Source of the DNA: Thermovirga sp.
GTDB taxonomy: Bacteria; Synergistota; Synergistia; Synergistales; Thermovirgaceae
Direction: 5' to 3'
NCBI RefSeq assembly: GCF_017656375.1
Contig: NZ_JACDOB010000011.1
Location: 1 to 51,460, forward strand
Length of the DNA stretch: 51,460 nucleotides
Position 1 is the first letter of the stretch. The number at the start of each line of letters is the position of its first letter. The translations under genes and the position numbers were made by a program. Positions 6,878-40,950 of the stretch are shown one piece after another. The notes beneath the pieces were generated by a model, which was not told the origin of the DNA, searched no databases, and saw only the letters and a list, made by a program, of their open reading frames with translations.

Positions 6878-6886
6878 AAATATAAG

Positions 6887-6917: not shown

Positions 6918-6957
6918 AAATTATTTTATATAGTTTATATAGGTTTAAAGCTTTGAT

Positions 6958-24135: not shown

Positions 24136-25146
24136 TTATTGCAGCTGGGTCGCCACTCTGTCAAAAATATCTTCTCCTATATCCTTCTTGATCACTGGCC
24201 ATACTTCCTGCCTCACCTTCTTTGCCATAGCATTGAGCTCCTCCTGGCTAAACGTAACAATTTTTATGCCTGCATCAGCCAACCTTTGCATATTTTTCTT
24301 TTCTGCTAACGGAGCCTCGTTCCATCTTTTTGTTTCTAGTTCCTTCCCTAGCTTTGTAAGAAGTTCTTGGTCTTCTTTCGACAGGCTTTCCCAGAGATCT
24401 TTGTTTATGTACCACCACCACATTTCAAAATGATCATTCACTGCGTGATATTCTTTTAGTAAATCTCTAAAATTAGCGTAATATCCCTCTGCCCCCCCTC
24501 CAATAACTCCTTCTACTATTCTGGTTTGCATTGCTGTAAACACTTCAGCCCAAGGTATTGGGGTAGCTTGATAACCTAGCGCTTTTGCAGTTAGCTCAAA
24601 GGATTTTATTGGTGGAACTCGTATTTTAGTATTTTTGGGAACGTTCGGATCACCTGGCGAGGGAACCGACTTAAGCAATCCTATTCCTCCAAAATAGACA
24701 GGCCATCCAGAAATAAGGTGAATATTTTCATTCTTTGCCAATATTTCTTTAACTGTATCATATACAACTCCACCAGATTTAAACAACTTTGCAGCTTCAT
24801 CGTAATTAGTGACCAAATAAGGAGCTGCTGGCAAGTTCAAAGATTTAGATACTGTAGTACCTAAGCAAGCCAGCTGCATTTCTACGGCACCCATAGAAAC
24901 CCTTTCCTGGACTACCGTATAATCTCCCAATTGGCTAGCTGGATAAACTTCTATCGTTATGCGACCCTTCGATTCTTCTTTTATCTTTTCGACCAACCAA
25001 TTAATATCTCTATCTATTTCCGTTCCTGTGGGGCGTATATGACCTATCTTCCAATGATACACCTTCTCCGCAAAGGCTACTCCCGTCAACATCACAAACA
25101 AAACAACTGTTGCTAACACTACTAGAGAAGCTTTTCTCATCTTCAT
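24136..25146 (-). CDS. dctP: TRAP transporter solute-binding protein (DctP)
   Basis: 336 residues. A signal peptide (residues 1-26, ending GVAFA) shows export. The mature protein has the DctP pattern: WKIGHIRPTGTEIDR, ASQLGDYTVVQERVSMG, the ligand-carboxylate Arg region TKIRVPPIKSFELTAKALG and TPIPWAEVFTAMQTRIVEG. It captures an organic or amino acid for the DctQM permease. Unusually it is the last gene of the operon, about 5 kb from dctM, after four catabolic genes. GAGGAGGG precedes ATG 25146. Confidence 0.93.
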   Translation of the reverse strand: MKMRKASLVVLATVVLFVMLTGVAFAEKVYHWKIGHIRPTGTEIDRDINWLVEKIKEESKGRITIEVYPASQLGDYTVVQERVSMGAVEMQLACLGTTVSKSLNLPAAPYLVTNYDEAAKLFKSGGVVYDTVKEILAKNENIHLISGWPVYFGGIGLLKSVPSPGDPNVPKNTKIRVPPIKSFELTAKALGYQATPIPWAEVFTAMQTRIVEGVIGGGAEGYYANFRDLLKEYHAVNDHFEMWWWYINKDLWESLSKEDQELLTKLGKELETKRWNEAPLAEKKNMQRLADAGIKIVTFSQEELNAMAKKVRQEVWPVIKKDIGEDIFDRVATQLQ

Positions 25147-25185
25147 AACCTAACCCTCCTCTTGCTCGAACTCTTGCTTTTTCAA

Positions 25186-25204
25186 GTTAGTGAAACCAAC
25201 TAAC
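25186..25204. repeat. Small intercistronic hairpin before dctP
   Basis: GTTAGT (25186-25191) and ACTAAC (25199-25204), 7-base loop, in the 125-base gap before dctP. It could stabilise or process the mRNA so that the binding protein is made in excess. It is short and the case is weak. Confidence 0.3.
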
Positions 25205-25271
25205 GTCTTGGGTATATCTTATACACCTCCCCTTTTTGAGTTCTCCACATTCTCACAAAGCAAAAACTTTG

Positions 25272-26267
25272 CTAGAAAGAAAAAGAAACTCCCTTACCCT
25301 TTTCCATAGCCCTTCGATAAATCATGGAAGCTACTGAAACATCCATGGCTCCTGTGCCAATAGTGACACAAAGTATTTTTTCGTCATTTTTCGTTCTGCC
25401 ATGCTTTTTCCCTGCAACCACTTCTCCTAAAGTGCCATAAATGTTTTCAGCAGTAATAGCACCTGCTCCTACAAGCTCTTTCAAGGCTCCTCTGTGGAGG
25501 CATTGTTCTACATGATCAACTACTATTTTGTCAGCAGATAGTATCACATCATCAGCACATTCGGAAAAAGAGCCCAAAGGGCATAAAGTAACGCCCTCTT
25601 TAAACATTTCCTTTCTAATAAATTTGTTTTTCGCGTGGGTTACAGAGACAACTGCGTCTGCCCCATCGGTTGCCTCCTGAGGAGAATCAAAAAGCTTAAT
25701 TGGGGCTTTTGTCATAGGCGACATTTCTTTCAAAAACAACATAGCAGCATCTTTATTTATGTCATAAACCCTGAATTCTTTTATATCAAAAACTGAGGAA
25801 ATAGCTAAAAGTTGTGTTCTTCCCTGCGTTCCGGCCCCGAATAGAGCTATTACAGGACGCTCTCTACTTACCATCAGATACTTAAGTGCTACAGCTACTT
25901 GTGCACCAGTTCTCATCGCCGTTATAAGCCCACCATCCATTACTGACAAAAATTGTCCATCTTCTGGATTCACAAGTATTATCATGCCTCTTATGTAAGG
26001 TAAACCTTTACTAGGGTTGTTCTCCCATCCTCCTATAAACTTAATACCAGCCACTTTTTGCCAACCTATATATGCTGGCATTGCGTTCATACCAGCTTTG
26101 TACGGCAATCCGCTTGAACCATCTCCAAGATCTAAATGTAATTTCGCCGGGTTGATCACGCCTCCTTCACCCATGTCTTTAAAAGTTTTCTCTACCACCT
26201 CCACAACTTCTTCTATGGAAATAAGATCTCTAATGTCCTCGCGACTTAACAACAGAGTGCCCACCAC
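25272..26267 (-). CDS. Ornithine cyclodeaminase / mu-crystallin family protein, copy 1
   Basis: 331 residues. Family signs are LLSREDIRDLISIEEVVEVVE, GGLITAMRTGAQVAVALKYL, the NAD-binding IALFGAGTQGRTQL and VVDHVEQCLHRGALKEL. The family includes ornithine cyclodeaminase, alanine dehydrogenase, ketimine reductase and N-alkyl amino-acid forming or cleaving dehydrogenases. All form or reduce an imine with NAD(P). The start is GTG 26267 after AGGAGG (spacing about 11); the adjacent GTG could also serve. A paralog lies immediately upstream. Confidence 0.85.
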   Translation of the reverse strand: MVGTLLLSREDIRDLISIEEVVEVVEKTFKDMGEGGVINPAKLHLDLGDGSSGLPYKAGMNAMPAYIGWQKVAGIKFIGGWENNPSKGLPYIRGMIILVNPEDGQFLSVMDGGLITAMRTGAQVAVALKYLMVSRERPVIALFGAGTQGRTQLLAISSVFDIKEFRVYDINKDAAMLFLKEMSPMTKAPIKLFDSPQEATDGADAVVSVTHAKNKFIRKEMFKEGVTLCPLGSFSECADDVILSADKIVVDHVEQCLHRGALKELVGAGAITAENIYGTLGEVVAGKKHGRTKNDEKILCVTIGTGAMDVSVASMIYRRAMEKGKGVSFSF

Positions 26268-26301
26268 TCACTCACCTGCCTCCTATGTCGCTAAACTTTC
26301 T

Positions 26302-27297
26302 TTAAACAAACTCATAAAATCCACCAATCTCTTTTTCTTCGGCCCTCTGAAGCGCTATAGTAGCCACAGCTACGTCCATGGCTCCCGTACCAATTGGAAT
26401 ACAAAGAATCCTTTCTTCCTCCCTTTCTCTTCCTAATTTTTTTCCTGCAACAATTTCCCCTATTGTGGCATAAATATTCTTTTCCGTTATTTTCCCTGCC
26501 TCGCTAAGCCCTTTTAACGCCCCTCTATGTAAACACTGTCCAATATGATCAACGATTATTTTGTCAGCGTTAAGAATAAATTCATCTTCGCATTCTTGAT
26601 AGGACCCCATTGGGAAAAGTATTGTCCCCGGCTTAAGCCACTTATCTTTGACAAATTTGTCTTTTGACTGGGTAACGCAAACTACCACATCTGCATCCGC
26701 TGCTTCCTCTGGCGAGGAGGCTATGACTATATCGCCTTGAACTTTATTTTTCATATCTTCCGCGTATTTCTTTGAAGCATCAGGGTTAATGTCATAAACC
26801 CTTACTTCATCAATGTGAAAAATTTCAGAGATGGCCATAGTTTGAGTATGACCTTGCATTCCAGCACCAAAAAGACCTAAGCGAAGATTCTTTTTAGAAT
26901 ATAAATATTTCAGAGCAATAGCAGTTTGTGCTCCTGTTCTCATATTTGTTATATAAGCGCCATCCATTACCGCCCGAAAATTACCTATTTTTGGGTCTAT
27001 TAAAAGTATTAACGACGTTATGTACGGCAAACCCATTCTACGTCGCTCACCAAGAAATCCGCCCGCCCACTTGATGCCAGCAGAGTCCAACCACCCAACA
27101 TAGGCAGGCATGGCATTCATAAAACCCTCATATGGAGGATAAGATGCTGTTTCTCCTAGGTCCAATCCAACTTTAGTAGGGTTTATAACCGTCCCTTCTC
27201 CCATCCCTTTGAAAGTTTTTTCAACAGCCTCAAGAACATCCTTCATAGTTATAAGGGACTTAACCTCCTCCTGACTCAAAAGTCTGGTTTTAAACAT
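26302..27297 (-). CDS. Ornithine cyclodeaminase / mu-crystallin family protein, copy 2
   Basis: 331 residues, the same length as the downstream paralog and similar throughout: LLSQEEVKSLITMKDVLEAVE, GAYITNMRTGAQTAIALKYL, LGLFGAGMQGHTQTMAIS, IVDHIGQCLHRGALKGL. A tandem duplication followed by divergence is the simplest reading. Two such enzymes may form a heteromer or treat two related substrates. GGGAGGAAGG precedes ATG 27297. It is co-transcribed with the serine dehydratase and opine-dehydrogenase-family genes. Confidence 0.85.
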   Translation of the reverse strand: MFKTRLLSQEEVKSLITMKDVLEAVEKTFKGMGEGTVINPTKVGLDLGETASYPPYEGFMNAMPAYVGWLDSAGIKWAGGFLGERRRMGLPYITSLILLIDPKIGNFRAVMDGAYITNMRTGAQTAIALKYLYSKKNLRLGLFGAGMQGHTQTMAISEIFHIDEVRVYDINPDASKKYAEDMKNKVQGDIVIASSPEEAADADVVVCVTQSKDKFVKDKWLKPGTILFPMGSYQECEDEFILNADKIIVDHIGQCLHRGALKGLSEAGKITEKNIYATIGEIVAGKKLGREREEERILCIPIGTGAMDVAVATIALQRAEEKEIGGFYEFV

Positions 27298-27328
27298 TTT
27301 CCTTCCTCCCTCTGTTTTTATATGTAAA

Positions 27329-28906
27329 TCACTCCAGACTGGAGCATTTCTTTAGCCATTCTTCTTTAAGGCGTAACGCAGTTTCTGTTGCCCCTAAACC
27401 TCCCAAAGTAGTATCTCTAAGTTCTGGTGGCAAAAGAGCTTGTACGTTCCTTAAGGCATAAATGACCTCATCTGGTGGGATTACACTCTTTATTCCTGCG
27501 AGCGCCATATCTGCAGCAGCAAAGGCATTAGCTACACCAATAGCATTTCTCTTTATGCAGGGAACCTCTACAGGTCCCGCCACTGGATCACATACCAGGC
27601 CTAAAATATTTTTTAAGGCAATTGCCATAGCTTGAGCCGTCTGCTCTGGCTGACCCCCTACTGTAATTACCAAAGCTGCTGCTGCCATAGCTGAAGCAAC
27701 ACCGACTTCCGACTGACAACCTCCCAGTGCTCCTGAAACAGGAGCCAAAGAAGCAATAATAGCTCCATAGATGCCAGCTACTAGTAGGGCATCTACTATT
27801 ACTTCTTCGCTTATTTTTCTTTTTTCTTCAACAGCACAGAGAACTCCAGGTAGCACCCCACAAGAACCAGCCGTTGGAGCCGCACAAACCCTACCCATGG
27901 AAGCATTAATCTCCATTGCCGCAAGCGCGTAGGCGATAGCAAGAGGCAAAATATTGCCCCCAACTGTTGTGCCTCTCTTACAATTTTCAAAAAGTCTCTT
28001 GGCGTCGTCTCCCGGCACAAGCCCTCCAACTACGGGGTTTTTTCCTGTAAGTCCTTTATGGGCCGATTCCTTCATAACTATCCATATCTTCTTAAGCTTT
28101 TCTCTTATAGCGCTCTTGGTAAGGACACTCCTATTCATTTCATAGTCTTCTACAAGCCCGACAAGGCCTCCCTGATGCTTTTCAGCCTTCGAGAGCATTT
28201 CAGAGATTGACAAGAAAAGCGGAGCTCCTCTAACCGGCCCGTAATCGTAAAGCATTGGGATAAATTTGACTTTCCTTACTCCTCTTATAGATGCCATAGT
28301 ATTTAAGTCGCTTTTGTTTGGAGATCTCATCATTGGGAAAATTAGGAGATCGCCACTTTCTTTAGCATTCTTTGTATCTACATCAATTCCCAATTTGGCT
28401 ACATCTATTTGTACGTCCGAAATCTTTCTGCCTTCAACAAACAAAATTAGAAGCGGTTCCTTTCCTCGTATAGCTATCGGATTGTCGTTTATTCTAGAAA
28501 TAAGTATTTCACCACCACCAATGGTGACCCCTTCAATAAATATTTGCCCTTCTTCACTGATCAAATTTAGCTCTATAGTGTTGGGGTTTTTATCAGATGA
28601 CTTGTTTAAATGTATAATTAACTCAACACCCTCTTCTCTGGCCTTTGCAAGAGCGTTTTTTATATCAGGGCTATCTACGCTCATGCCTAAAAGCCCTCCA
28701 ACAAGACCGGCATCCGTCATGTGCCCTTTATACGTTTCTGCTAATGAGCCATAAAATGTAATTTCGACTTTCTTGAGTTCGGCATCTGCTAGATATCTCG
28801 CCATCTTACCAATACGTACAGCTCCAGCTGTATGTGAACTTGATGGTCCAGTCATAATAGGGCCCAGTATATCGAAAATACTTCCAGGCTCTGGCAACGC
28901 ATTCAC
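27329..28906 (-). CDS. sdaA: L-serine dehydratase, iron-sulfur type, one-chain
   Basis: 525 residues. The N-terminal half is the beta domain (IFDILGPIMTGPSSSHTAGA) with an ACT-like segment. The C-terminal half is the alpha domain, with cysteines for the 4Fe-4S cluster in GRVCAAPTAGSCG, GGCQSEVG and LVCDPVAG. It deaminates L-serine to pyruvate and ammonia. Clostridia and Bacillus split these domains into two genes; here they are fused as in Escherichia coli. The start is uncertain: GTG 28906, or TTG 28897 just after AGAGGTG. Context within the TRAP operon suggests serine, or a related 2-hydroxymethyl amino acid, is released by the pathway. Confidence 0.9.
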   Translation of the reverse strand: MNALPEPGSIFDILGPIMTGPSSSHTAGAVRIGKMARYLADAELKKVEITFYGSLAETYKGHMTDAGLVGGLLGMSVDSPDIKNALAKAREEGVELIIHLNKSSDKNPNTIELNLISEEGQIFIEGVTIGGGEILISRINDNPIAIRGKEPLLILFVEGRKISDVQIDVAKLGIDVDTKNAKESGDLLIFPMMRSPNKSDLNTMASIRGVRKVKFIPMLYDYGPVRGAPLFLSISEMLSKAEKHQGGLVGLVEDYEMNRSVLTKSAIREKLKKIWIVMKESAHKGLTGKNPVVGGLVPGDDAKRLFENCKRGTTVGGNILPLAIAYALAAMEINASMGRVCAAPTAGSCGVLPGVLCAVEEKRKISEEVIVDALLVAGIYGAIIASLAPVSGALGGCQSEVGVASAMAAAALVITVGGQPEQTAQAMAIALKNILGLVCDPVAGPVEVPCIKRNAIGVANAFAAADMALAGIKSVIPPDEVIYALRNVQALLPPELRDTTLGGLGATETALRLKEEWLKKCSSLE

Positions 28907-28918
28907 CTCTTTCTCTCT

Positions 28919-30022
28919 TTAACATATTCCCTCATCAAGCAATTTGTCCCAATTTTCCAACTTGATCTCGTCCAACCCCAATTTATTAATAGTTCTACCT
29001 TCAGAGAAAAAATCCCGCTCATTTATAACCCCTGCTATCAAAATGATGCTTTCTATCAAAGGACAGGGAATCCCAAGATGTCTTCCAAATGAAGCTACAG
29101 GCACTAAAAGGTAAGGAACATCCTCAGTCAAATAACGGTGCGAAAGGATTCTTGGAGCATCAGGGCCATGTTCCCCATAAACTGGACTTCCTTGAAGCAG
29201 CTCATAAAGAGTGTCACCTTCTAGAGAATAACTTCTTTTAAGCCACTCCTTTTGAGTCTGCAACGTGAGCCCTAATCGATTCCCCACTCTTATTCTCTCT
29301 TGATCTACCATTTCACATACCTTACATACCGAAGGAGTCATTCCATCTGTATAGAACCTAAAATTTCCTCTCTCTGATTCTATGCGGCCAGCATTTAAAA
29401 TCATTGTTGGACAATGTACGACCATATTCAAATTAGAAAAAGATGTCTCTAAAACGTTCTTTGCTTTAACAATATTTACTGGAAATATTTCCTCTAGTTC
29501 CATCCGGGCTGTCTCATTATGTTTGGAAGGCAATACCGCAAGCAAAACTTCCGTTTTTATTCCCCAAATGTCAATAACGCCAGGATTCTTTTGGCGGCAA
29601 GCGTACGGGAGGGTATTTGTTTCTCCAATCAAAAGCGGCTTTTCACAATTCTCTTTCCTAAAAAAATTCATCAATTCTAAAGAACCAAAGTTACCTGGAA
29701 TAAGAATGATTTTCATTTCAGCCTTCATAAACGGCATAATCATTTCTATCAAAGGACGTTGTGCAAATGCCGGCGCCACGACAAAAACAAATTCCACTCC
29801 TTCCAACGCCTCCTCAGGATTAACAGTCGCTTTTTCTAACCTCCCCTCTCCCTCTATTGCTCCTTCAAGCTGTATATTTGAACCTTTTTCTCTAATGGCC
29901 TCAATTTTTTCCTTATAAGTAGGGTGTTCTAATAGGTTGACTTTGTGCCCTAGCAGGGCTAAGTGGCCTGCCAATGCCTGCCCTCCATTTCCTGCCCCGA
30001 CAACCGCTAATTTCTTATTCAT
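28919..30022 (-). CDS. NAD/NADP octopine/opine dehydrogenase family protein
   Basis: 367 residues from ATG 30022 (GGGGGAAGGAG upstream); a longer GTG start at 30049 has no RBS. The Rossmann motif VVGAGNGGQALAGHLALLGH begins at residue 6. The C-terminal helical domain has the conserved His and Asn in NMVVHCPTMILNAGR and the GSPVYGEHGPDAPRILSHRYLTEDVP block, as in octopine dehydrogenase. Family enzymes reversibly join an amino acid and a 2-oxo acid by reductive amination, or oxidise the resulting opine. In a catabolic operon with a transporter, opine cleavage is the likelier direction. Substrate is unknown. Confidence 0.85.
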   Translation of the reverse strand: MNKKLAVVGAGNGGQALAGHLALLGHKVNLLEHPTYKEKIEAIREKGSNIQLEGAIEGEGRLEKATVNPEEALEGVEFVFVVAPAFAQRPLIEMIMPFMKAEMKIILIPGNFGSLELMNFFRKENCEKPLLIGETNTLPYACRQKNPGVIDIWGIKTEVLLAVLPSKHNETARMELEEIFPVNIVKAKNVLETSFSNLNMVVHCPTMILNAGRIESERGNFRFYTDGMTPSVCKVCEMVDQERIRVGNRLGLTLQTQKEWLKRSYSLEGDTLYELLQGSPVYGEHGPDAPRILSHRYLTEDVPYLLVPVASFGRHLGIPCPLIESIILIAGVINERDFFSEGRTINKLGLDEIKLENWDKLLDEGIC

Positions 30023-30102
30023 TATCTCCTTCCCCCATTCTTTTATCACAAATTACAATTAACACTAACACTTTTATTAGCAAACGCCCATAATCAATTA
30101 AT

Positions 30103-31416
30103 TTATTTTACATAACCCAGAACGGTGGGAAGCCACATAGAAAGAGGCGGCCAATATGTTGTCAAAAAAACTACCGGAACATATCCTAAAAGCAAAAAAG
30201 TCATTGTTGGTTTTAAAATCTCTGTAAATTCACAATTACCCACACGCATACCTAAATAGAGGATGCTTGCGTAAGGAGGCGTCACTCCGCCCATCGCCAG
30301 ATTTGTACCCATAATGGCAGCAAGCTGTATTGGATGCATTCCCATCTCTTTGACCAAAGGCAACAAAAGGGGGGCAAGTAGGATTATTCCTGTTACGTCG
30401 TTAACTATCATCCCCACAAAAAACAAAAATATATTAATAAGAAACAATATCAAAAAGTAGTTTTGGCTAAATTTGAATACTAATTGCACCACCATTTGTG
30501 GCACTCGTAACATCACAAAAGTTTGACTTAGTATCAGTGTAAAAATAATCATTGTCATTATTGCCCCAACAGACGTGGCAGATTCCCTAACGACAGGAAC
30601 AAAATTTTTTGTAGTCAAGCCCTTATATATAAAAAATCCCACAGGCAAAGCTATAATGGCTGCCACAGCAGCCGCTTCAGTAGGGGTAAATACCCCTCCA
30701 TAGATTCCTCCAAGAATAACAACGGGTATCGACAAGGCCGGAAGGGCTTTTACAAAGCGTATAGGAATTTCCTTGCGTTTTCTTGAAAGCTCTTCCGGGC
30801 TATCTACTAGGATATTTGGCATTCTACGGGCCAAAAACAAATTTATTACCGAAAAAAGTGCTGTTATTAAAATTCCTGGCCCCACAGTAGCCAAAAAACA
30901 AGCGAGAATTGATGTTTCAGTTATCCAACCGTAGATAATCATTATCACACTGGGAGGTATGAGGAGGCCTAAAATGGAAGAAACAGTAACTAGCGCCGTA
31001 GCGTAGCCTCTTGGATAACCTTGAGAAACCATTCGCGGAATCATTATTGGGCCCGTTGCAGCAACCCCGGTGAAGCCGCTTCCCGAGATGGCACCAATAA
31101 TAGCGCAAGTCACAACACATACAACACCTAATCCACCTTTAACTCTGCCCACAAATATATCTACAAAATCCAGCAGCTTGTCAGCTATTCCACTGTTAGC
31201 CATAAGAAGGCCAGCAAATATAAAAAGCGGGCTTGCCAAAAGCACCATATTTATCATTTGGTTAAAGCCCCACATCATCATGCTAGCCATAGCCACATTA
31301 CCAAAAACGCTCATAAACCATAAAGCCCCACCGAAACAAAAAGGTAATGGCACACCAAGGATTAACAATGTCACAAGAAGCATAAAATCAAGCAAGACCG
31401 TCACTGGAAGGCTCAC
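30103..31416 (-). CDS. dctM: TRAP transporter large permease subunit (DctM)
   Basis: 437 residues, about 12 membrane segments. FAGLLMANSGIADKLLDF, GAISGSGFTGVAATGPIMIP and TEAAAVAAIIALPVGFF are DctM signatures. It carries the sodium-coupled transport of the ligand delivered by DctP. GTG 31416 follows AAGGGGGTAAG; the gene starts 5 bases after the dctQ stop, so the two are translationally coupled. Confidence 0.94.
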   Translation of the reverse strand: MSLPVTVLLDFMLLVTLLILGVPLPFCFGGALWFMSVFGNVAMASMMMWGFNQMINMVLLASPLFIFAGLLMANSGIADKLLDFVDIFVGRVKGGLGVVCVVTCAIIGAISGSGFTGVAATGPIMIPRMVSQGYPRGYATALVTVSSILGLLIPPSVIMIIYGWITETSILACFLATVGPGILITALFSVINLFLARRMPNILVDSPEELSRKRKEIPIRFVKALPALSIPVVILGGIYGGVFTPTEAAAVAAIIALPVGFFIYKGLTTKNFVPVVRESATSVGAIMTMIIFTLILSQTFVMLRVPQMVVQLVFKFSQNYFLILFLINIFLFFVGMIVNDVTGIILLAPLLLPLVKEMGMHPIQLAAIMGTNLAMGGVTPPYASILYLGMRVGNCEFTEILKPTMTFLLLGYVPVVFLTTYWPPLSMWLPTVLGYVK

Positions 31417-31421
31417 GACAC

Positions 31422-31937
31422 TTACCCCCTTTCCCTAAGAAGAGATCTGACCTTTATAAGGTGATCACATAATTCCACTGATGTGTAAATTGACATCAAC
31501 ATTAAACAAATGAAAAGGGAGCTTTCTCCAAAAAAAAGAGGAATATACAAAAGGTTACTTAGTTTCCATACCTTCAATGAATACATAAAGTACTTATATG
31601 CCCAGTACGCCAACCAAAGACATACACTCAGAGAAATTGTTGATTTTAAAAGGTTAAGTAAACTCAAAGCTACTGGATTTTTTACATAAACAGTGATGAC
31701 ATTGCATTGTATGTGATTCCGTTCCAAGGAGGCATTTGCTCCCCCTAACATGTAGAGCCAAATTGCTGGAAAAAGCACCAATTCCTCAATCCCCATAAGA
31801 GGGGCGTGCAATACATACCGCAAAATCACCTGAATAAAAACAATCACGGTGACACTCAGCATCAAAAAAGTTAGGACAACACCCTGAACCGCATAAGCCA
31901 AAGACCACATTGATTTTGCCAACTTCTTTAGAACCAT
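31422..31937 (-). CDS. dctQ: TRAP transporter small permease subunit (DctQ)
   Basis: 171 residues with four membrane segments. Family signs: VILRYVLHAPLMGIEELVLFPAIWLYMLGGA and the charged turn LERNHIQCNVI. It partners DctM. ATG 31937 is preceded by AGAGGAGG. It is the first gene of the leftward operon and diverges from the grdE-like gene. Confidence 0.92.
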   Translation of the reverse strand: MVLKKLAKSMWSLAYAVQGVVLTFLMLSVTVIVFIQVILRYVLHAPLMGIEELVLFPAIWLYMLGGANASLERNHIQCNVITVYVKNPVALSLLNLLKSTISLSVCLWLAYWAYKYFMYSLKVWKLSNLLYIPLFFGESSLFICLMLMSIYTSVELCDHLIKVRSLLRERG

Positions 31938-31976
31938 ACCCCCTTACCTCCTCTGAATTTGGGATAGCGTTCAAGT

Positions 31977-32018
31977 TTGACAAGCATCTTAAGCTCATAT
32001 TATAATATTGTCTGACTT
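31977..32018 (+). promoter_or_regulatory. Promoter and FadR-type operator of the grd-like operon
   Basis: TTGACA (31977-31982), 18 bases, TATAAT (32001-32006): both boxes are perfect. The -10 lies in a 12-base palindrome ATATTATAATAT (31997-32008) that supplies a minus-strand TATAAT as well. TTGTCTGACTT (32008-32018), at the predicted transcription start, resembles the core GGTCTGACC of FadR-subfamily operators. The regulator at 35187 belongs to that class. Confidence 0.6.
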
Positions 32019-32076
32019 TAGTATAGTGTAGTATTTGTATTTTAGATTGTCAATACTTCTTAGGGGAGGTATCCAA

Positions 32077-33393
32077 ATGCACAACAAGGCATACATGTCT
32101 GAGTTCCGTCTCCGAAAGATAGATATCAAAAATGTCATTGAGGGTACAAAAACAGAGATAAAAGAAAAGAACCTTTACATAAATATCGAAGAAATTAAAG
32201 CTGCAATATTAGAAGACAAACACATTTCTTCTGTAGAAATTCACATTGCCAGGCCAGGAGAAAGAAAAAGAATAATCCCAGTTAAAGACGTTTTGGCTCC
32301 CATTGCAAAACTCCAAGGCGATGGGGCTGTTTTCCCTGGCTGCATTGGAACTCCAGCCGGAGCTATCTCTGGAAGTGGCACAACTGCAATGCTCGAAGGA
32401 GTAGGTGTAGTAACTTGCGGCAAATTGGTTAATTTTCAAGAAGGGCTCATAGACATGGCGGGACCAGGTGCGGAATACTCCGTTTTTTCCCGTCTCTGCA
32501 ACATTGTCCTTGTTATAGAGCCTATTACGGGGATTGACAAACATGAACACGAACGAGTTGTTCGAGAAGCTGGTGTAAAAGCCGCTACAATGATTGGGAA
32601 AGCGTCTATAGGCGCTCCTTACTATGAAGAGATTAAATATCCTAATGAAACTATTCCGGAAATTTACAAAAAATATCCAACATTGCCAAAAGTAGTTTAC
32701 GTGCGGCAAGTTCTTGCACAAGGCTTACTGCATGACAACTACATCTACGGCTTAAATGTTCGCGAAGCATCTTTTCCCTTCTGGCTAAAACCTACGGAGT
32801 TGTTTGATGGAGCACTTGTGAGCGGCAATTGTGCTGCACCCTGCCATAAACATACTACATATCATCACCTAAAAGATCCTATCGTAGAAGACCTGCTAGC
32901 AGAACACGGAAAAAGATTAGCATTTTTAGGCATTATAGCTCAACCCGTTAGAACATCTTTCAGCGAAAAAGAAAGGAATTCATACCAAGTTCTAAAACTC
33001 GCTCTGGCTGTTGGCGCAGAGGGAGCCATTATTGCTGAAGATGGAGGAGGTAATCCAGAAAGCGACCTTATGCTCACCACGCGACTTTTAGAAAGAGCGG
33101 GCATTCACACTGTTATAGTAACTGATGAATACGCGGGAAGCGATGGGGCATCGCCCGGATTAGCAGACGTCACCCCAGAAGCCAATGCGGTCGTCACGAA
33201 TGGGAATGGTAACGAAATAGTTGTTTTACCGCCAATGGACGAGATTATAGGGCATATTGAAGCAGTTGAAACTATAACTGGCGGACATTCTGGTAGTCTT
33301 CAACCCGATGGTTCCATTTGCATCGAAATAGCAGGGATTATGGGGTCCACAAATGAATTAGGAATGGAAAACCTTTCTACTAAAGCCGTTTAG
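32077..33393 (+). CDS. grdE: Glycine/sarcosine/betaine reductase component B, alpha/beta proprotein (GrdE-like)
   Basis: 438 residues from ATG 32077, 6 bases after GGGGAGGT (32063-32070); an upstream in-frame start at 32035 lacks an RBS. Signs: GCIGTPAGAISGSGTTAMLEG, CGKLVNFQEGLIDMAGPGAEYS and GAEGAIIAEDGGGNPESDLM. In known GrdE-type proproteins self-cleavage before a Cys gives the pyruvoyl group that forms the Schiff base with the amine substrate. Asn251-Cys252 in SGNCAAPCHK lies at the matching place. It is the substrate-binding, substrate-specific subunit. No grdA, grdC or grdD lies in the window, so those must be elsewhere. Confidence 0.9.
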   Translation: MHNKAYMSEFRLRKIDIKNVIEGTKTEIKEKNLYINIEEIKAAILEDKHISSVEIHIARPGERKRIIPVKDVLAPIAKLQGDGAVFPGCIGTPAGAISGSGTTAMLEGVGVVTCGKLVNFQEGLIDMAGPGAEYSVFSRLCNIVLVIEPITGIDKHEHERVVREAGVKAATMIGKASIGAPYYEEIKYPNETIPEIYKKYPTLPKVVYVRQVLAQGLLHDNYIYGLNVREASFPFWLKPTELFDGALVSGNCAAPCHKHTTYHHLKDPIVEDLLAEHGKRLAFLGIIAQPVRTSFSEKERNSYQVLKLALAVGAEGAIIAEDGGGNPESDLMLTTRLLERAGIHTVIVTDEYAGSDGASPGLADVTPEANAVVTNGNGNEIVVLPPMDEIIGHIEAVETITGGHSGSLQPDGSICIEIAGIMGSTNELGMENLSTKAV

Positions 33394-33412
33394 AAAAGGG
33401 AGGACGTTTGTG

Positions 33413-34714
33413 ATGTATAAGGCTGTTCATTATATAAATCAATTTTTTGCTGGTGTGGGCGGTGAACAAAGCGCAAACATCTCTCCTTATGTAGTGGAGG
33501 GAGCCGTAGGGTTTGGGAAAGAAATCGAAAAACTTTCTAAAAACCGTATAAAAATATCTCATACCATCATATGTGGTGATAATTATGCCGCCGAACACCC
33601 CGAAGAGCTAAAGAAGCAAACGTTATCATGGTTCCAAGAGATAAAACCCGATATTTTCATTGCAGGCCCAGCCTTCGCTGCTGGAAGGTTTGGTTTAGCA
33701 TGTGGAACTTTATGCGAAATGGTAGGGAAAAGACTACAAATACCATGCGTTAGTGGAATGCACGAAACCAACCCAGGGATAGAGATAGCAAAGAAAACAA
33801 CATTTATCATTGAAACAAAGGACTCTGTAAGAGACCTCAAAAGGACACTGGAAAGAATGGTTATGCTTTCTCTTAAAATTCTTGACGGACAATATATTGG
33901 AGGACCAACGGAAGAAGGTTACCACCCTCGCGGAATACGCGTAAACGTACGTAGAGAAAAAAGAGGTTCTAAGCGAGCTGTAGAAATGCTTTTGAACAAA
34001 CTCGGAGGCAAAAACTTTGAAACAGAACTACCCATGCCAATTTTTGACCATGTGCCTCCTGCTCCAGCATTACAAAATATTTCTGAATCCTTGATCGCTG
34101 CTGGGACTGAAGGAGGTATTGTCCCCAGAGGCAATCCGGACAAAATAGAAGCGCATAATGCATCAAAATGGTGCATGTATTCAATTGAAGAAATCTCAAA
34201 ACTTAAAAAAGAAGATTACGAGGTCGCTCATGGTGGCTATGATCCAGTCCCTGCAACACAAGACCCTAACCGGATCCTTCCCATTGATGGGCTTCGAATA
34301 TTGGAAAAAAAAGGTCTATTTAGAAAACTCCTTGAGAAGTATTTCGTCACAGTTGGGAATGTCACTGCAGTTAAATCTGCAGAGATGTATGGCAAGGAAA
34401 TCGCATCAATGCTCCAAAACGAAGGCGTAAATGGAGTTGTTATGACCTCTACTTGAGGGACAGGAACTCGTTGCGGAGCAACGATTGCAAGAGAAATCGA
34501 AAGGGTCGGGATACCTGTAGCCCTGATTACCGCGATACCTAGTATAGCTTTGACTGTAGGAGCAAACAGAATAGTTCGAGGAGTAGCTATACCTCACCCT
34601 GTAGGATCTCCTTCGGAAAGGGATTATAAAGCTGAGTTAGAAATACGATTGAAAATTCTACAAAGCGCTCTTTTGGCCCTTCAAACGAATTTAACAGAAC
34701 AAAAAGTCTTTTAA
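33413..34714 (+). CDS. grdB: Component B gamma subunit (GrdB-like), selenoprotein read through UGA
   Basis: The frame opens at ATG 33413 (GGGAGG upstream; a GTG at 33410 is the alternative) and reaches an in-frame TGA at 34454-34456. It then continues as GTRCGATIAREIERVGIP and 70 further family-like residues to TAA at 34712-34714. Reading TGA as selenocysteine gives 433 residues, the normal GrdB length, with Sec at 348 (Sec350 in the clostridial protein). MYKAVHYINQFFAGVGGE is the typical N-terminus. The redox motif is normally UxxCxxC; here it reads U-GTG-TR-C, so the middle Cys is Gly. The Sec attacks the substrate's C-N bond and passes the two-carbon unit to GrdA. A hairpin suited to Sec insertion follows the UGA. 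Confidence 0.93.
34457..34490 (+). promoter_or_regulatory. Bacterial SECIS-like hairpin
   Basis: CGTTGC (34469-34474) and GCAACG (34478-34483) form a 6-bp stem with a GGA loop, 12 bases after the UGA. Bacterial SECIS elements are small hairpins at this distance with a G at the start of the apical loop. The hairpin lies in the coding sequence, as it does in bacteria. Confidence 0.8.
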
Positions 34715-34715
34715 A

Positions 34716-35108
34716 ATGCTAAACACTAAAAAAATGAACAAGATAGATAGTACTTTAACAGTGATTACGAATAACCCTTTAGTACGTGATAAATATAGTA
34801 ATGTTATCTACGTTTATGGAGGGCCTTTGCAAGTAATTGATAAGGTTTTAGAATTCTTAGAGAAAGGGTACTTGCTCCACTCGCATCCAATTTCTGGGAG
34901 CATAAGGCTTTCGTGTAACCCATATCGCTCTATTTTAGTCTCAAAAAAGAGAAGCGGCGGACAAATAGATAAGAACGGAATCAAAACTATTCTTGTGGCG
35001 ATTGATCATATTTATAAATCCATTAATAACAGACCTACTCCAAAGGTATTTTTATACGACTATGCAGAATTGGATCTTGAACTTCTAGAAAAAACAGTAA
35101 CATTTTAA
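34716..35108 (+). CDS. grdX: GrdX family protein
   Basis: 130 residues, starting one base after the GrdB stop. TVITNNPLVRDKY, the IYVYGGPLQVIDKVLEFLEKGYLLHSHP block and SGSIRLSCNPYRSILV fit GrdX, a small protein found in glycine-, sarcosine- and betaine-reductase operons with no proven function. In clostridia it is commonly the first gene; here it is after grdB. There is no strong RBS, which fits translational coupling; ATG at 34734 is an alternative start. Confidence 0.8.
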   Translation: MLNTKKMNKIDSTLTVITNNPLVRDKYSNVIYVYGGPLQVIDKVLEFLEKGYLLHSHPISGSIRLSCNPYRSILVSKKRSGGQIDKNGIKTILVAIDHIYKSINNRPTPKVFLYDYAELDLELLEKTVTF

Positions 35109-35186
35109 GAGATAGCCATATGGAATATTTATATTTCATGTAACACTACTATTGGAAAAGTACTGATTGTTTGCGGAGGAAAGGCA

Positions 35187-35900
35187 ATGCTAAAACCTCA
35201 AAAAAAATCTACTTTATACGAATTAGTTTTAGGAGAAATTATTTCGGCAATAAAAAAAGGCCATTGGAAACCTGGCGAAAAATTACCCACCGAAACGACA
35301 TTAGCAGGCAAATTGAATGTGAGTCGTAGCGTTATCAGGGAAGTTATAAAAGCCTTAACTCTTTATGGTGTAGTTGAATCAAAGCCCGGGCATGGTACTT
35401 ATCTATCTCAACGAGCCTTAATAAATTTGAACAACAGCGAGTTACTCCATACAATATCTCAAGGTTCTTCTTTCGTAGAACTCATGGAAGTACGCATGAT
35501 AATAGAAACCCAGGCCGCATTTTGGGCGGCTCAAAGGGCAAAGGAGAAGGATATAAAGAAACTAGAAAAAATCCTCGACAAAGAAAAAGAACTACAAAAA
35601 CCCGATACCGATATTCATGCTAAGTTCCATGATGCAATAGTTGAACTTTCAGGCAACAAACTCCTACTTCAAATTTACAACTCCATTAGAAGCGAAATAT
35701 CTCTCCAACGGAAGAAATTCGCAAAGTTTTCCGTTGAAGATTTAAAAAGCTTTTCCGCACAACATTATGAAATTCTTAATGCCATAAAGAATAAAAACGC
35801 AGAAAAAGCACGCTCTCTTATGGAGAAACACATATTAAAAAGCCTGGACCTAACCAACAAATTTATAGCTGAGGAAGCAAAGGGAACCAGCCACTCTTGA
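35187..35900 (+). CDS. GntR-family regulator, FadR (FCD) subfamily
   Basis: 237 residues; GGAGG precedes ATG 35187. Residues about 8-75 are the winged helix (LPTETTLAGKLNVSRSVIREVIKAL). Residues 95-225 are the all-helical FCD ligand domain, with the metal-binding pattern Asp...His...His (HAKFHDAIVELSG, HYEILNAI, MEKHILKSLD). It lies at the end of the grd-like operon and probably senses the substrate. A candidate site is TTGTCTGACTT at 32008-32018 between the divergent operons. Confidence 0.88.
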   Translation: MLKPQKKSTLYELVLGEIISAIKKGHWKPGEKLPTETTLAGKLNVSRSVIREVIKALTLYGVVESKPGHGTYLSQRALINLNNSELLHTISQGSSFVELMEVRMIIETQAAFWAAQRAKEKDIKKLEKILDKEKELQKPDTDIHAKFHDAIVELSGNKLLLQIYNSIRSEISLQRKKFAKFSVEDLKSFSAQHYEILNAIKNKNAEKARSLMEKHILKSLDLTNKFIAEEAKGTSHS

Positions 35901-35916: not shown

Positions 35917-36870
35917 TTAAACATAAAGATCTGTGCTCAAATATTTAAGGCCTGAATCACAAACCAAAAAAGCTATAGTGTTCCCTTTTTCCTTCCCACG
36001 CAGAAGCCGGGCCGCAGCGAAGACATGGGCTCCCGTTGAAAATCCGCCAAATATGCCCTCTATCTCCGCGAGAGCCCTCGCTCCTTCAATAGCCTCCTCG
36101 TCGGTTACAGTAATGTACTCCTCAACAAGAGACCTATCCAATAGAGGCAAATCCCTACAGTATCCCCCGCCCTGAATCTTATGATTTGGATTTTTTATGG
36201 GCCCTCCCGCAAGATATGGAGCAGAAGCGGGTTCAACAAGATAGCACCTTATGTCCGGGTTGTGTTTTTTAAGAGCCTTAGCGCATCCCACAAAAGTACC
36301 CCCGGTTCCAACAAAATCGACGAACGCATCTATTTGCCCATCAAGATCATGCCACAGCTCCTCACCTGTGTGAAGCTCATGAGCTTTTGCATTAGCCTCA
36401 AGCATAAATTGATCAGCCCTAAAAGCTCCTAATTCTTTTACCACCTCTTGTGTTTTTGCCTCTACCAAAGCCAGGTCCTCCCCAGACACCTGCCCTGGCA
36501 CAGAGCCAGGGGCTTGATCCACAAGGACCACCTCTGCCCCAAGGGCTTCCATCATCCTCGCTCTTTCCATGGAGTTGCCTTTGGACATGACAGCAATAAA
36601 GGGATAACCTTTAACAGCACAAACTATGGCAAGTCCTGTACCTGTATTGCCACTTGTAAGTTCCACCACCGGCTGCCCTGGAGAAAGTGCCCCAGAAGCC
36701 TCCGCTTCCTCAATTATTTTGAGGGCTATCCTGTCTTTCTTGCTGTAACCAGGATTAAGATTTTCCAATTTGGCAAACAGCTGGCCCTCTAATTCCCATT
36801 CCCTGCAAAGCCTGGACAACTTCACAACAGGAGTATTACCTATGGCTTCCAAAACACTTTTACAAAACAT
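35917..36870 (-). CDS. Cysteine synthase family PLP enzyme
   Basis: 317 residues from ATG 36870, just after the stop of the upstream gene; a start at 36903 would overlap that gene. IGNTPVVKLSRL, the PLP-binding Lys in LNPGYSKKDRIAL, ELTSGNTGTGLAIV and VGTGGTFVGCAKALK are fold-type II signs. O-acetylserine sulfhydrylase usually reads NPxxSxKDR, and the GYSKKDR variant and ELHTGEELWHDLDGQ block are consistent with it. It may make cysteine, but a related lyase or beta-replacement reaction is possible. It is co-transcribed with the GNAT-nitrilase gene. Confidence 0.82.
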   Translation of the reverse strand: MFCKSVLEAIGNTPVVKLSRLCREWELEGQLFAKLENLNPGYSKKDRIALKIIEEAEASGALSPGQPVVELTSGNTGTGLAIVCAVKGYPFIAVMSKGNSMERARMMEALGAEVVLVDQAPGSVPGQVSGEDLALVEAKTQEVVKELGAFRADQFMLEANAKAHELHTGEELWHDLDGQIDAFVDFVGTGGTFVGCAKALKKHNPDIRCYLVEPASAPYLAGGPIKNPNHKIQGGGYCRDLPLLDRSLVEEYITVTDEEAIEGARALAEIEGIFGGFSTGAHVFAAARLLRGKEKGNTIAFLVCDSGLKYLSTDLYV

Positions 36871-36872
36871 GC

Positions 36873-38423
36873 TTATCCCTTCTTTCCTCCCTTTTTTAGC
36901 CATTGAACCCTGTAGAGGTCATCTCTACGGCTCTGAAGGCTCCTCACACTGCCTGAAGTCCTAAGTTCCTTTATCAAGTCTATATCTAAATCAGCTATCA
37001 AGGCCATCTCAGTATTAGGCGTGGCCTCAGCAGCCACAGCATCAGGAGGAAAAGCAAAATCAGCGGGAGTCAGTATGGCAGACTGAGAATACTGAATGTC
37101 CATGTTTTCTACCTTTGGGATGTTACCTACGCTTCCTGTAATGGCAACGTAGCATTCGTTCTCTATGGCTCTTGCTTGGGCACAATGCCTTACTCTGAGA
37201 TATCCGTTTCTCGTATCAGTCCAATAAGGCACCAACAAAATGGTCATTCCCATATCAGCAAGTATCCTAGGAAGCTCAGGAAATTCTACGTCATAGCAAA
37301 CTAATATGCCGATTTTCCCTACATCAGTATCAAAAACCTTAAGCTCGTCTCCCCCCTGAAGACCCCACGTCATATATTCATCAGGGGTTATATGAAGTTT
37401 GTACTGCTTATCCCATGTACCGTCCCGCCTACAGAGAAAAGACACATTGTACAGAGCCCCATTTTTGTACTCAGGCACGCTACCTGAAACAATATTTATG
37501 TTGTAGCTCAAGGCCATCCTCACCAAGGCCTCTCTCATAGGCTCAGTGTATTGGGCTAAAAGCCGCATTGCCTCAGCAGGGTCCTTCTGATCATAGTGAG
37601 CTATCAGAGGGACATTGAAGAGCTCTGGGAAAAGGACTAAATCTGCCTTGTAGCCAGAGACAGCATCCACAAAAAACTCAACCTGCTGCATAAAGTCATC
37701 AAAAGAATTAAAAAGCCTCATCTGCCACTGTACTACACCTAAGCGAACATAAGTTTTGACCCTCTTTATCAGGCTCTTCTTTTCTTCGTAATATATGTTG
37801 TGCCACTCGAGGATTACTCCGTATCCCTTGGATTTCGTGTCCGCCGGCCAATAGCCAGGCACTATTCGCTTGACGTGAAAATCGTTGCTGAGCTGAAAGG
37901 TTAAAACCGGGTCTGTGATCTCCTTGTTTTCCACCATTCGAACATATTCACCTGGCTTCATGGAATCTGCGTATTTAGCATATCCAGGAATCCTACCCCC
38001 TATAATTATTCCCTTAAGGTTTAAAGTCTCACAGAGTTCCTTTCTGGCATCGTACAGTCTCCTGCCAAGCCGCATATCCCTATAATCTGGGTGCACGAAG
38101 ACATCTATGCCGTACAAATAATCCCCATCGGGATCATGATTTTTCAACGTACCATCCCCTACTATTTGCTTATAAGTGTGGCGATCCCCATAAACAGTAG
38201 AATCTATGATCAATGAAAGGGCGGCGGCAACTATGTGTCCCTCAAACTCCATACCTAATTGCCCCTCCGGGAACCTCCTCACCATGCACTCAAACTGCTT
38301 GTAACTCCAGGCTCCTCCCATATCAGGGTATATAAGGTCCATTATCTTCCTTATATCTTCATAATCCTCGATCTTTAGAGTTCTAAGTTTGAGCTTGGAA
38401 TAATCCTCTCTTTTCTTATCCAT
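36873..38423 (-). CDS. GNAT acetyltransferase fused to carbon-nitrogen hydrolase
   Basis: 516 residues from ATG 38423, preceded by GGAGGT; a longer frame to 38489 has no RBS. Residues 8-200 are a GNAT domain, with the acetyl-CoA loop region VHPDYRDMRLGRRLYDARKEL. Residues 230-510 are a nitrilase-fold amidase with the Glu-Lys-Cys triad in LFPELFN, DKQYKLHITPDE and GILVCYDVEFPE. The pair suggests an N-acylated or amide substrate handled at two sites. It forms a two-gene operon with the cysteine-synthase-family gene (2-base gap) and is divergent from a GntR regulator. Confidence 0.85.
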   Translation of the reverse strand: MDKKREDYSKLKLRTLKIEDYEDIRKIMDLIYPDMGGAWSYKQFECMVRRFPEGQLGMEFEGHIVAAALSLIIDSTVYGDRHTYKQIVGDGTLKNHDPDGDYLYGIDVFVHPDYRDMRLGRRLYDARKELCETLNLKGIIIGGRIPGYAKYADSMKPGEYVRMVENKEITDPVLTFQLSNDFHVKRIVPGYWPADTKSKGYGVILEWHNIYYEEKKSLIKRVKTYVRLGVVQWQMRLFNSFDDFMQQVEFFVDAVSGYKADLVLFPELFNVPLIAHYDQKDPAEAMRLLAQYTEPMREALVRMALSYNINIVSGSVPEYKNGALYNVSFLCRRDGTWDKQYKLHITPDEYMTWGLQGGDELKVFDTDVGKIGILVCYDVEFPELPRILADMGMTILLVPYWTDTRNGYLRVRHCAQARAIENECYVAITGSVGNIPKVENMDIQYSQSAILTPADFAFPPDAVAAEATPNTEMALIADLDIDLIKELRTSGSVRSLQSRRDDLYRVQWLKKGGKKG

Positions 38424-38531
38424 TGATAGCACTACCTCCAAATTCTTTCTTTCTCTATTATTATAAACCAAAGATTTCCACCGCAACAATTTAACACGCT
38501 AAAACACGCTTACACTAAGGTGTTTTCCTAG

Positions 38532-38574
38532 TTGACATAATTGACAGATAATGTATCCTTGTATGTAAGGATAC
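38532..38574 (+). promoter_or_regulatory. Promoter with overlapping perfect inverted repeat (GntR operator)
   Basis: TTGACA (38532-38537), 16 bases, TATCCT (38554-38559). GTATCCTT (38553-38560) and AAGGATAC (38567-38574) form a perfect 8-base inverted repeat, 6 bases apart, covering the -10. GntR-family proteins bind such sites and often repress their own gene, here at 38598. A second TTGACA lies at 38541-38546. Confidence 0.65.
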
Positions 38575-38597
38575 CAGAATCCAAAGAGGTGAAAAAA

Positions 38598-39296
38598 ATG
38601 GATTCCATACTAAAAGCTATTCCCGAAGAAACTTATGTGCCCGTCAGAGTAATAGTTTATGAAACCCTTAGAGAGGCTATTTTCAGGCGAGAACTGAAAG
38701 ACGGCGACAAGTTGATCGAAAGTGAGCTTGCCGAAAAGCTTAACGTAAGCCGGACCCCTGTGAGAGAAGCTTTGCGCATGCTGGAGTCAGAGGGCCTGGT
38801 GGAGAGGATTCCCCGTAAGGGGCTTTTCGTAAAGGGACTATCTAAAGAGGATATAATTGAGATCTATTCCATAAGACAAGCCCTTGAAGCCCTAGCCATA
38901 AGATCTGTCTGCAAGAATATTACTGACGAAGAACTGAAAGAGCTAAAAAGGCTCTACTCCCAAATGGAAGAAGCATATGAACAAGGAGACGACAACAAAC
39001 TTTTCGCCCTGTCCCAAAAATTCAACGAAGCTATAGTTGCCCCATCCAATATGCCCAGGCTTTTGAGCCTACTTGCCACATACCATGAATATCTAAGAAG
39101 GCTACGATCCCGTTCCTTCAGTAAGTCTTCACGAAAAGTACAGGCCCTCAAGGAACATGGCCAGATACTTGAAGCAATATCAGAAAGAAACCCTGATAAG
39201 GCTGAACGGCTAGTCAAAGAACACCTGGAAAACGCCATAAAGGCACTCACCATTGAATTTCACCCCAACAACACACCTCAAAAAAAAATGATTTAA
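38598..39296 (+). CDS. GntR-family regulator (FCD domain)
   Basis: 232 residues from ATG 38598, with AAAGAGGTG upstream; the frame is open from 38541, but that region is the promoter. The N-terminal winged helix contains LIESELAEKLNVSRTPVREALRML. The FCD domain follows (IYSIRQALEALAIRSVC, ISERNPDKAERLVKEHLENAIKAL). It probably represses the tricarboxylate-uptake and citrate genes that follow in the same direction, relieved by the transported acid. Confidence 0.9.
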   Translation: MDSILKAIPEETYVPVRVIVYETLREAIFRRELKDGDKLIESELAEKLNVSRTPVREALRMLESEGLVERIPRKGLFVKGLSKEDIIEIYSIRQALEALAIRSVCKNITDEELKELKRLYSQMEEAYEQGDDNKLFALSQKFNEAIVAPSNMPRLLSLLATYHEYLRRLRSRSFSKSSRKVQALKEHGQILEAISERNPDKAERLVKEHLENAIKALTIEFHPNNTPQKKMI

Positions 39297-39383: not shown

Positions 39384-40373
39384 ATGAAAGGTTCTTTCAA
39401 AAAAATGCTTGCCTTGGTGTTGATCTCAGCTTTTGTCCTTTCTGTTGCTGGACTGGCAAGTGCTGCATGGAAACCCACCAGGCCTATTGAAATAGTAGCT
39501 CCTGCTGGGCCTGGCGGTGGATGGGATACCCTTGCCAGAGTAGTCAAAAAAGCCCTTGAAGAGGAAAAGCTTGTAGATCAGCCAATCATCGTCACCAACA
39601 TGCCCGGCGGTGGCGGTGCAACGGGATGGACATATCTGAAAGGCAAAAAGGGTAAAGGAGAGTATTTGGCAGTAAACTCTAGCTTGATCCTCTTAAATAA
39701 TTTACTTGGCAAGAGCAAATTAACTTTCAAGGACTTCACAGTCTTGGCTAACCTGCAGGCAGAATGGGAAACCATTGCCGTAAAGAGCGATGCCCCTTAT
39801 TCTGACTTAAAGAGCTTCTTTGAGGCATTAAAGGCGAATCCTGGCGATATGCCCATTGGCGTTGGCCCAACCCTCGGTAACGACGATCACATACAGTTTT
39901 TGATGCTAGCCAAAAAGTACGGCGTAGATCCTGCCACCGTCAAATTCGTAGTTTACCCTGAAACAGCAGCCGGTCAAATCCCTGCGCTCCTAGGAGGCCA
40001 TATAAAGGCCATAACCATAAGCCTTGGAGAGACACTTGAACAAGTAAAGGCAGGAAACCTCAAACTTCTCGGTATTTCATCTCCTGAGCGTCTCAATATC
40101 CTTCCTGACGTACCTACATACAAGGAGCAAGGCGTAGATTTGGTATTCCCCCACTGGCGAGGAATAATGGCTGCTCCAGGACTCTCTGAAGAACAGATAG
40201 CTTTCTGGAATGAAACCCTCAAGAAAATGGTCGAAAGCAAAACATGGAAGGAATCTCTCAAAAACCTGGGATGGGATCAGTTCTACCAGAACGCAGACGA
40301 GTACAAAGCCTACCTTGAAGATCAGGAAAAAGAGATAAAGGACCTTCTGTCCAAGGTTGGATTGATAAAGTAA
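39384..40373 (+). CDS. tctC: Tripartite tricarboxylate transporter substrate-binding protein (TctC)
   Basis: 329 residues; a signal peptide (1-27, ending LASA) is followed by WKPTRPIEIVAPAGPGGGWDTLAR, the typical TctC opening, and by the conserved VVYPETAAGQIPALLGGHIKAI and LGISSPERLNILPDVPTYKEQG. It binds citrate or another carboxylate outside the membrane for TctAB. AAGGAGG precedes ATG 39384. Co-transcribed with the GntR gene. Confidence 0.94.
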   Translation: MKGSFKKMLALVLISAFVLSVAGLASAAWKPTRPIEIVAPAGPGGGWDTLARVVKKALEEEKLVDQPIIVTNMPGGGGATGWTYLKGKKGKGEYLAVNSSLILLNNLLGKSKLTFKDFTVLANLQAEWETIAVKSDAPYSDLKSFFEALKANPGDMPIGVGPTLGNDDHIQFLMLAKKYGVDPATVKFVVYPETAAGQIPALLGGHIKAITISLGETLEQVKAGNLKLLGISSPERLNILPDVPTYKEQGVDLVFPHWRGIMAAPGLSEEQIAFWNETLKKMVESKTWKESLKNLGWDQFYQNADEYKAYLEDQEKEIKDLLSKVGLIK

Positions 40374-40395
40374 CAAGCACACAGACCTTAAGTAC

Positions 40396-40430: not shown

Positions 40431-40451
40431 TCAAAAAGGAGGAAGAAACTG

Positions 40452-40928: not shown

Positions 40929-40950
40929 TGTGTAGAGGAGGTATTTGGTT

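Follow-up and report, generated by a model that had tools for sequence, protein, structure and literature searches.

Component B decides which substrates the glycine reductase system uses, and few of them are known: glycine, sarcosine, betaine and fluoroacetate. A locus at positions 24,136 to 35,900 of a 51,460-nucleotide stretch of Thermovirga sp. DNA (GCF_017656375.1, contig NZ_JACDOB010000011.1; hereafter the window) raises the question of whether there is a further one, and what it could be. An earlier note had described here a TRAP importer, an opine dehydrogenase (ODH), a serine dehydratase-type protein (SDA) and two members of the ornithine cyclodeaminase (OCD) family, divergent from a grdE-grdB-grdX-gntR set, and family profile searches found all 11 genes where it had placed them: dctQ-dctM-odh-sda-ocd1-ocd2-dctP on the minus strand and grdE-grdB-grdX-gntR on the plus strand, grdB containing a selenocysteine (Sec) codon. 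The likeliest reading of this GrdB is that it represents a new substrate type of component B. Tentatively, and with a little less than an even chance of being right, I propose that the locus, under GntR control, serves to catabolise a single imported compound, most probably an opine-like R-NH-CH2-COO- secondary amine that would be cleaved by GrdEB and oxidised by the dehydrogenases.

Type of the GrdE/GrdB pair

The grdE-like gene for the component B proprotein (32077..33393, plus strand; ATG start; PF09338, 526 bits) is preceded by a ribosome-binding site, GGGGAGG, at 32063-32069, and adjoins the grdB-like gene for selenoprotein B (33410..34714, plus strand; PF07355, 469 bits up to the TGA; TIGR01918, 504 bits). 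A PF09338 alpha subunit followed by a PF07355 beta subunit, the latter with an in-frame TGA, a stem downstream of it and a tRNA-Sec in the genome, places the pair in the glycine/sarcosine/betaine reductase component B superfamily. The TGA lies at 34454-34456, in a frame that continues to a stop at 34712. It is predicted to be a Sec codon, not a stop, because homology is found on both sides of it (extending about 85 residues beyond, over TIGR01918 profile positions 1-429), because the genome has a tRNA-Sec gene (C3:48240, 78.9 bits) and because the downstream stem is conserved. This stem of the selenocysteine insertion sequence (SECIS) type, CGUUGC-GGA-GCAACG (34469..34483, plus strand), stands 12 nt after the TGA and is invariant at synonymous sites in 17 relatives: its Arg, Cys, Ala and Thr codons are always CGT, TGC, GCA and ACG, whereas variation is seen in the Thr and Gly codons next to them. 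By folding energy alone, the stem does not stand out (z -0.1 to -1.2, not significant).

A maximum-likelihood tree computed from 50 GrdB sequences puts the window GrdB inside a clade supported at 100/100, whose stem measures 0.4 changes per column. The clade is represented by 13 rows (its members L103, L105 and L108 are not included; compared loci carry L numbers), and stands apart from the glycine type (L004, L015), the sarcosine type (L034_3307 and L067, above the NF040794 cut-off) and the betaine type, the last represented by one below-cut-off near-betaine sequence, L147. The GrdE/GrdB phylogeny suggested in the earlier note thus places the pair in neither the glycine nor the sarcosine clade, and separates it from the single near-betaine sequence. 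Every clade member reads UGTGTRC (UGTG for short) where nearly all other GrdB proteins read UGTCTRC, so that the middle Cys of UxxCxxC is replaced by Gly. The equivalog models agree with the tree: the window GrdB gives 476 bits on the glycine reductase model TIGR01917 (cut-off 602) and 448 bits on the betaine model GrdH NF040795 (cut-off 775), the pair gives 501 of 800 bits on the sarcosine models' GrdF (NF040794) and 436 of 780 on GrdG (NF040793), and GrdE gives 101 bits on the fluoroacetate model FarE NF053623 (cut-off 675). A search of the PDB with GrdB returned no match.

GrdF is nevertheless the substrate-specific model on which the window GrdB scores highest, above glycine and betaine, and sarcosine reductase shares with the pair the two-subunit architecture, the in-frame Sec, the SGNCxxxC cysteines and, on the reading proposed here, a secondary amine substrate. 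One could therefore suppose that the grdEB pair acts on a simple amino acid, either primary or N-methylated, as its reducible substrate (sarcosine-like, dimethylglycine-like or a substituted glycine) and that the dehydrogenases and SDA merely supply electrons from alanine and serine. I regard this as rather unlikely, since GrdB is far below the sarcosine cut-off and its clade is separate; evidence from the accessory enzymes is weighed below. The window pair also differs from sarcosine reductase in the Gly that replaces the middle Cys and in having an importer and an opine dehydrogenase as partners.

GrdE retains the Cys pair of SGNCxxxC, as SGNCAAPC in the window compared with SGNCVSAC in the glycine type, and the sarcosine type retains it too; I take these cysteines to be the processing ones. 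Their conservation is that of a glycine/sarcosine-type pyruvoyl proprotein, and cleavage is predicted. Both processing cysteines are reported to be absent from the fluoroacetate and betaine subunits, Schiff-base formation being used for glycine and sarcosine (PMC10838667). By this distinction, their retention suggests that the window GrdEB acts on an amine that can form a Schiff base. The FarE/FarB pair of Cloacibacillus (PMC10838667) is otherwise a close parallel, in that it is a divergent Synergistota GrdE/GrdB pair whose non-glycine substrate is thought to be fed into the common GrdA/GrdC system and, like the window GrdB, it departs from the conserved Cys pattern beside Sec. It differs in that FarE reportedly lacks the processing cysteines that the window GrdE keeps, in the low score of this GrdE on the FarE model, and in its partners, an MFS antiporter and a radical SAM protein instead of a TRAP importer and dehydrogenases. 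Because FarB and a UxxD group also depart from UxxCxxC, the UGTGTRC motif excludes the canonical form of GrdB but not membership of the superfamily. The UxxD proteins (UGTDTRC), a few distant sequences, are found in L049, L051, L047, L076 and L077, from Chloroflexota, Sumerlaeota and Clostridiales, and occupy two or more separate branches in the tree.

Partners of the UGTG GrdB in relatives

Searching 188 Synergistota genomes with a degenerate DNA pattern for the UGTG motif gave 16 sites, which lie in 14 of the genomes and represent 11 genera; a reversed control pattern gave 0 hits. The same genes recur around these sites in varied order, and the genome survey that the earlier note had envisaged found opine-dehydrogenase, OCD and grdEB genes together in many genomes. 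TRAP dctQMP genes are present in nearly all UGTG clusters and SDA is frequent; among the accessory enzymes, OCD1 is the best conserved (70-85% identity in the majority of clusters, present at 11 of the 16 sites), and the ODHs of the clusters split into two subtypes that form separate groups. In a metagenome-assembled genome (MAG) labelled Deltaproteobacteria (L012:8446-16758), grdEBX of the clade lie near a fused TRAP permease, an MtaA-type methyltransferase and a GrdC-beta gene (630 bits, above cut-off), a neighbourhood that fits delivery to the common part that would form acetyl phosphate.

The association of ODH with GrdB was assessed from the distance, within 15 kb, between positions found in searches across the phylum Synergistota. 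An ODH lies within this distance at 13 of the 16 UGTG sites but at none of 150 other-type GrdB genes, which are the best-scoring ones listed and many of which are on short contigs (Fisher p ~8e-17, a value that ignores shared ancestry). The contigs that hold two of the three UGTG sites without ODH measure 5.2 and 11 kb; the third site, in G117, is a true absence. The neighbourhood of ODH and UGTG GrdB exceeds chance. It is not unique to this clade, since odh directly follows a grdB of a different clade in L034 (12625-13713), L037 (12590-13663) and L068 (12604-13677), from Sedimentibacter and a Clostridiales MAG, where GrdE reads SGNCVSPGSK and the second Cys is absent.

The importer gives a second view of the same partnership. 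It is encoded by dctM, the TRAP large permease (30103..31416, minus strand; TIGR00786, 315 bits, above cut-off; PF06808), dctQ, the small permease (31422..31937, minus; PF04290, 60 bits), and dctP, the solute-binding protein (24136..25146, minus; PF03480, 132 bits; 45-80% identity to relatives' copies adjoining grdEB); a search with DctP returned many TRAP proteins at similar scores and no clue to the ligand. The permease belongs to the same subfamily as its homologues in the clusters. These, together with that of L135, a module devoid of grd genes, group in a single clade (SH-aLRT 98), and the permease of a hydroxyproline-type locus falls outside it. ODH is nearby for 31 of the 38 copies of this subfamily: 10 have ODH, OCD1 and UGTG GrdB, and 21 have ODH with no UGTG GrdB within 15 kb, G181:C125 and G122:C8:427584 among the latter being affected by contig breaks or by the distance limit. 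Two copies have UGTG GrdB alone and five have none of these, some of them on short contigs. Oxidative and reductive branches therefore occur separately or together behind one importer subfamily. This lends support to the oxidative/reductive split proposed in the earlier note; the ligand and the acetyl phosphate product named there are conjectural. Since the subfamily occurs with the ODH branch, with the selenium reductase branch or with both, it is simplest to suppose that all its modules serve one compound class.

The 21 modules without UGTG GrdB, including the second copy in the window's own genome (L135), also fit a different idea, namely that two independent units, TRAP-ODH-OCD-SDA for one substrate and GrdEBX for another, are divergent by chance. 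This is very unlikely. Besides the frequency of ODH at UGTG sites, nearly every Synergistota cluster open to judgement has TRAP genes of the subfamily next to grdEB, including those that lack ODH and OCD, and in three relatives all ten genes lie on one strand: L009 and L016 have the order dctQ-dctM-odh-sda-ocd1-ocd2-dctP-grdE-grdB-grdX, with a gap of 223-226 bases and a possible terminator hairpin before grdE, and L103 has a single run that starts with grdE and contains gaps of at most 130 bases.

The region between the two window operons, 139 bases long, also argues against chance divergence. A promoter-like TTGACA-18-TATAAT directed toward grdE (31977..32006, plus strand; 12/12 consensus positions) and a promoter-like TTGACA-17-TACACT directed toward dctQ (32025..32053, minus strand; 10/12 positions) flank an operator-like TTGTCTGACTTTAG (32008..32021, no strand assigned; exact match). 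Since chance alone would give the window about three matches with up to two mismatches, the case for this site rests on its place and its recurrence, similar sites being found upstream in L109, L110 and L103. The palindrome in L009, L016 and L135 is of another type, TTATCCTACANTAGGATAA, and the assignment of TTGTCTGACTTTAG as an operator is accordingly tentative. As the opposed promoter-like sites share the operator-like site and these genes all lie on a single strand in relatives, the two operons are plausibly co-regulated. The candidate regulator is the FCD-type GntR protein (35187..35900, plus; PF00392 and PF07729, GntR and FCD), homologues of which occur in most clusters.

The enzymes and a candidate pathway

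The odh gene (28919..30049, minus; PF02317, 160 bits, cut-off 30) encodes an octopine/CENDH-type opine dehydrogenase, CENDH being N-(1-D-carboxyethyl)-L-norvaline dehydrogenase. Its Octopine_DH domain is above cut-off, and it has full-length homology with CENDH 1bg6, the nearest solved structure (phmmer E 9e-56), including the aligned segments SNLNMVVH, with the active-site His, and RYLTEDVP. Full-length likeness to CENDH with these regions retained speaks for a secondary amine linking two carbon skeletons as the substrate of ODH. The window enzyme differs from its family in lying in an operon with TRAP and grd genes, and presumably works in the degradative direction. The genes ocd1 (26302..27297, minus; PF02423, 203 bits; TIGR02371, 233 bits, cut-off 409) and ocd2 (25272..26267, minus; PF02423, 195 bits; 61-66% identity in L009, L016 and L103) encode dehydrogenases of the OCD/mu-crystallin family, members of which oxidise or reduce C-N bonds. 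They share PF02423 with the SbnB, archaeal alanine dehydrogenase and ketimine-reductase branches but miss all equivalog cut-offs. The sda gene (27329..28906, minus; PF03313 and PF03315) encodes a fused (beta and alpha) Fe-S L-serine dehydratase-type protein, which scores 291 bits on TIGR00718, above the cut-off for the serine ammonia-lyase alpha subunit.

Some of these assignments lend weight to the supposition that the accessory enzymes merely supply electrons for reduction of a simple amino acid: by E-value the best NCBIfam match of OCD1, although below cut-off, is the archaeal alanine dehydrogenase TIGR02371, SDA could draw on serine, and importer and GrdB occur without dehydrogenases in L108 and L014. 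A CENDH-type ODH, however, has no obvious role in the oxidation of alanine or serine, yet it is the commonest enzyme partner of the UGTG GrdB and the importer.

As is well established for this enzyme system, component B yields acetyl phosphate only from a compound with an N-CH2-COO- group. N-carboxymethyl amino acids such as strombine satisfy both this requirement and that of ODH for a secondary amine, and are proposed here for that reason; their halves (glycine, alanine, serine, pyruvate) would match the accessory genes. Substrate class, enzyme reactions and acetyl phosphate product are inferred, the ligand from family knowledge. In the opine-like reading, TRAP DctPQM would import such a compound, and GrdE/GrdB, as a new substrate-specific component B, would bind its amine through the pyruvoyl group. 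Sec would attack the CH2 carbon, R-NH2 would leave, and the carboxymethyl group would pass to GrdA and GrdC/D, which other loci of the genome encode, to give acetyl phosphate. ODH and the OCD enzymes would oxidise the substrate or the released amino acid to an oxo acid, ammonia or an amine, and NADH, and serine dehydratase would turn released serine into pyruvate. Oxidation and reduction of one substrate would together amount to a Stickland-type fermentation. That the locus is a self-contained fermentation of this kind for one opine-type compound, in which the opine dehydrogenase oxidises, a selenium component B of new specificity cleaves and acetyl phosphate conserves the energy, is a more specific proposal and a doubtful one.

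Several observations weigh against the opine-like reading. In G117 and, on a short contig, G090, the importer and GrdB occur but neither ODH nor OCD does, so that the reductive step does not require the dehydrogenases. OCD1 is below every equivalog cut-off, and OCD1 and SDA are assigned at the family level. A search for papers on opines with glycine reductase, strombine or iminodiacetate found no such pathway. Finally, TRAP-ODH-OCD1 modules without grd genes carry a galactarate/altronate-dehydratase-type gene (PF04295 and PF20629; L138:8647-9951, L139:9602-10795), and grd-free relatives of the window module also carry a second serine-dehydratase-like gene; these extra genes may reflect a different or broader substrate, and the galactarate/altronate-dehydratase-type gene is not explained by the opine idea. 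In L140, an apparently similar galactarate/altronate-dehydratase-type gene occupies the same place.

Those extra genes would suit a beta-hydroxy or beta-substituted amino acid derivative, from which Fe-S lyases (SDA, CyuA-like) would make an enamine or imine, OCD and ODH would reduce or hydrolyse it, and GrdEB would act on the product. A second SDH_alpha protein adjoins grdE in L104, L105 and L110, and SDA, OCD and TRAP genes are also together in a hydroxyproline-type locus of the same genome, L136. I nonetheless consider this scheme unlikely: L101 and L114 keep grdEB and ODH but have no SDA, which is partly a matter of contig limits.

Whichever compound is used, a separate GrdB clade that has lost a Cys beside Sec and has recurrent partners is a concrete lead to a further substrate of component B, and the importer subfamily named here has a binding protein that can be screened directly. 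If the opine-like reading is true, opine dehydrogenases in strict anaerobes gain a testable catabolic role. The recurrent gene set suggests that these anaerobic bacteria live, in a manner so far undescribed, on an unusual compound resembling an amino acid.

Other loci of the genome and flanking genes

The Synergistota genome to which the window belongs (1.8 Mb, 85 contigs) contains three GrdB and three GrdE genes, and grdA, grdC, grdD and tRNA-Sec are all encoded in it. A glycine reductase locus on contig C2 has grdX, trx, grdE, grdA, grdB, grdC and grdD, its neighbours being read from the sequence. Another grdEB-grdX set (L005, G000:C1, 7185-10310) forms its own Synergistota clade beside an apparent CdaR/PucR-type regulator; its GrdB is barely above the glycine GrdB cut-off (603.1 against 602.2 bits). 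In L135 (G000:C17:1-14000), the paralogous module at 1511-7692 has gntR divergent from dctQ-dctM-odh-dctP-odh2, and the hydroxyproline-type locus L136 (G000:C26, 6084-17773) encodes a trans-4-hydroxyproline dehydratase-like glycyl radical enzyme and a proline-racemase family protein along with its OCD, serine-dehydratase-like protein and TRAP transporter.

Within the window, grdX (34716..35108, plus; NF038093, 85 bits, above cut-off) completes the plus-strand set. The cysK-like, nitrilase/GNAT and second gntR genes that follow (35917-39296) were considered as parts of the locus and rejected, as near the grdEB genes of relatives they have only weak or regulator-family matches. Downstream of the second gntR, at 39384-42441, are genes for a probable tripartite tricarboxylate transporter of the TctC/TctB/TctA type, identified from sequence only.

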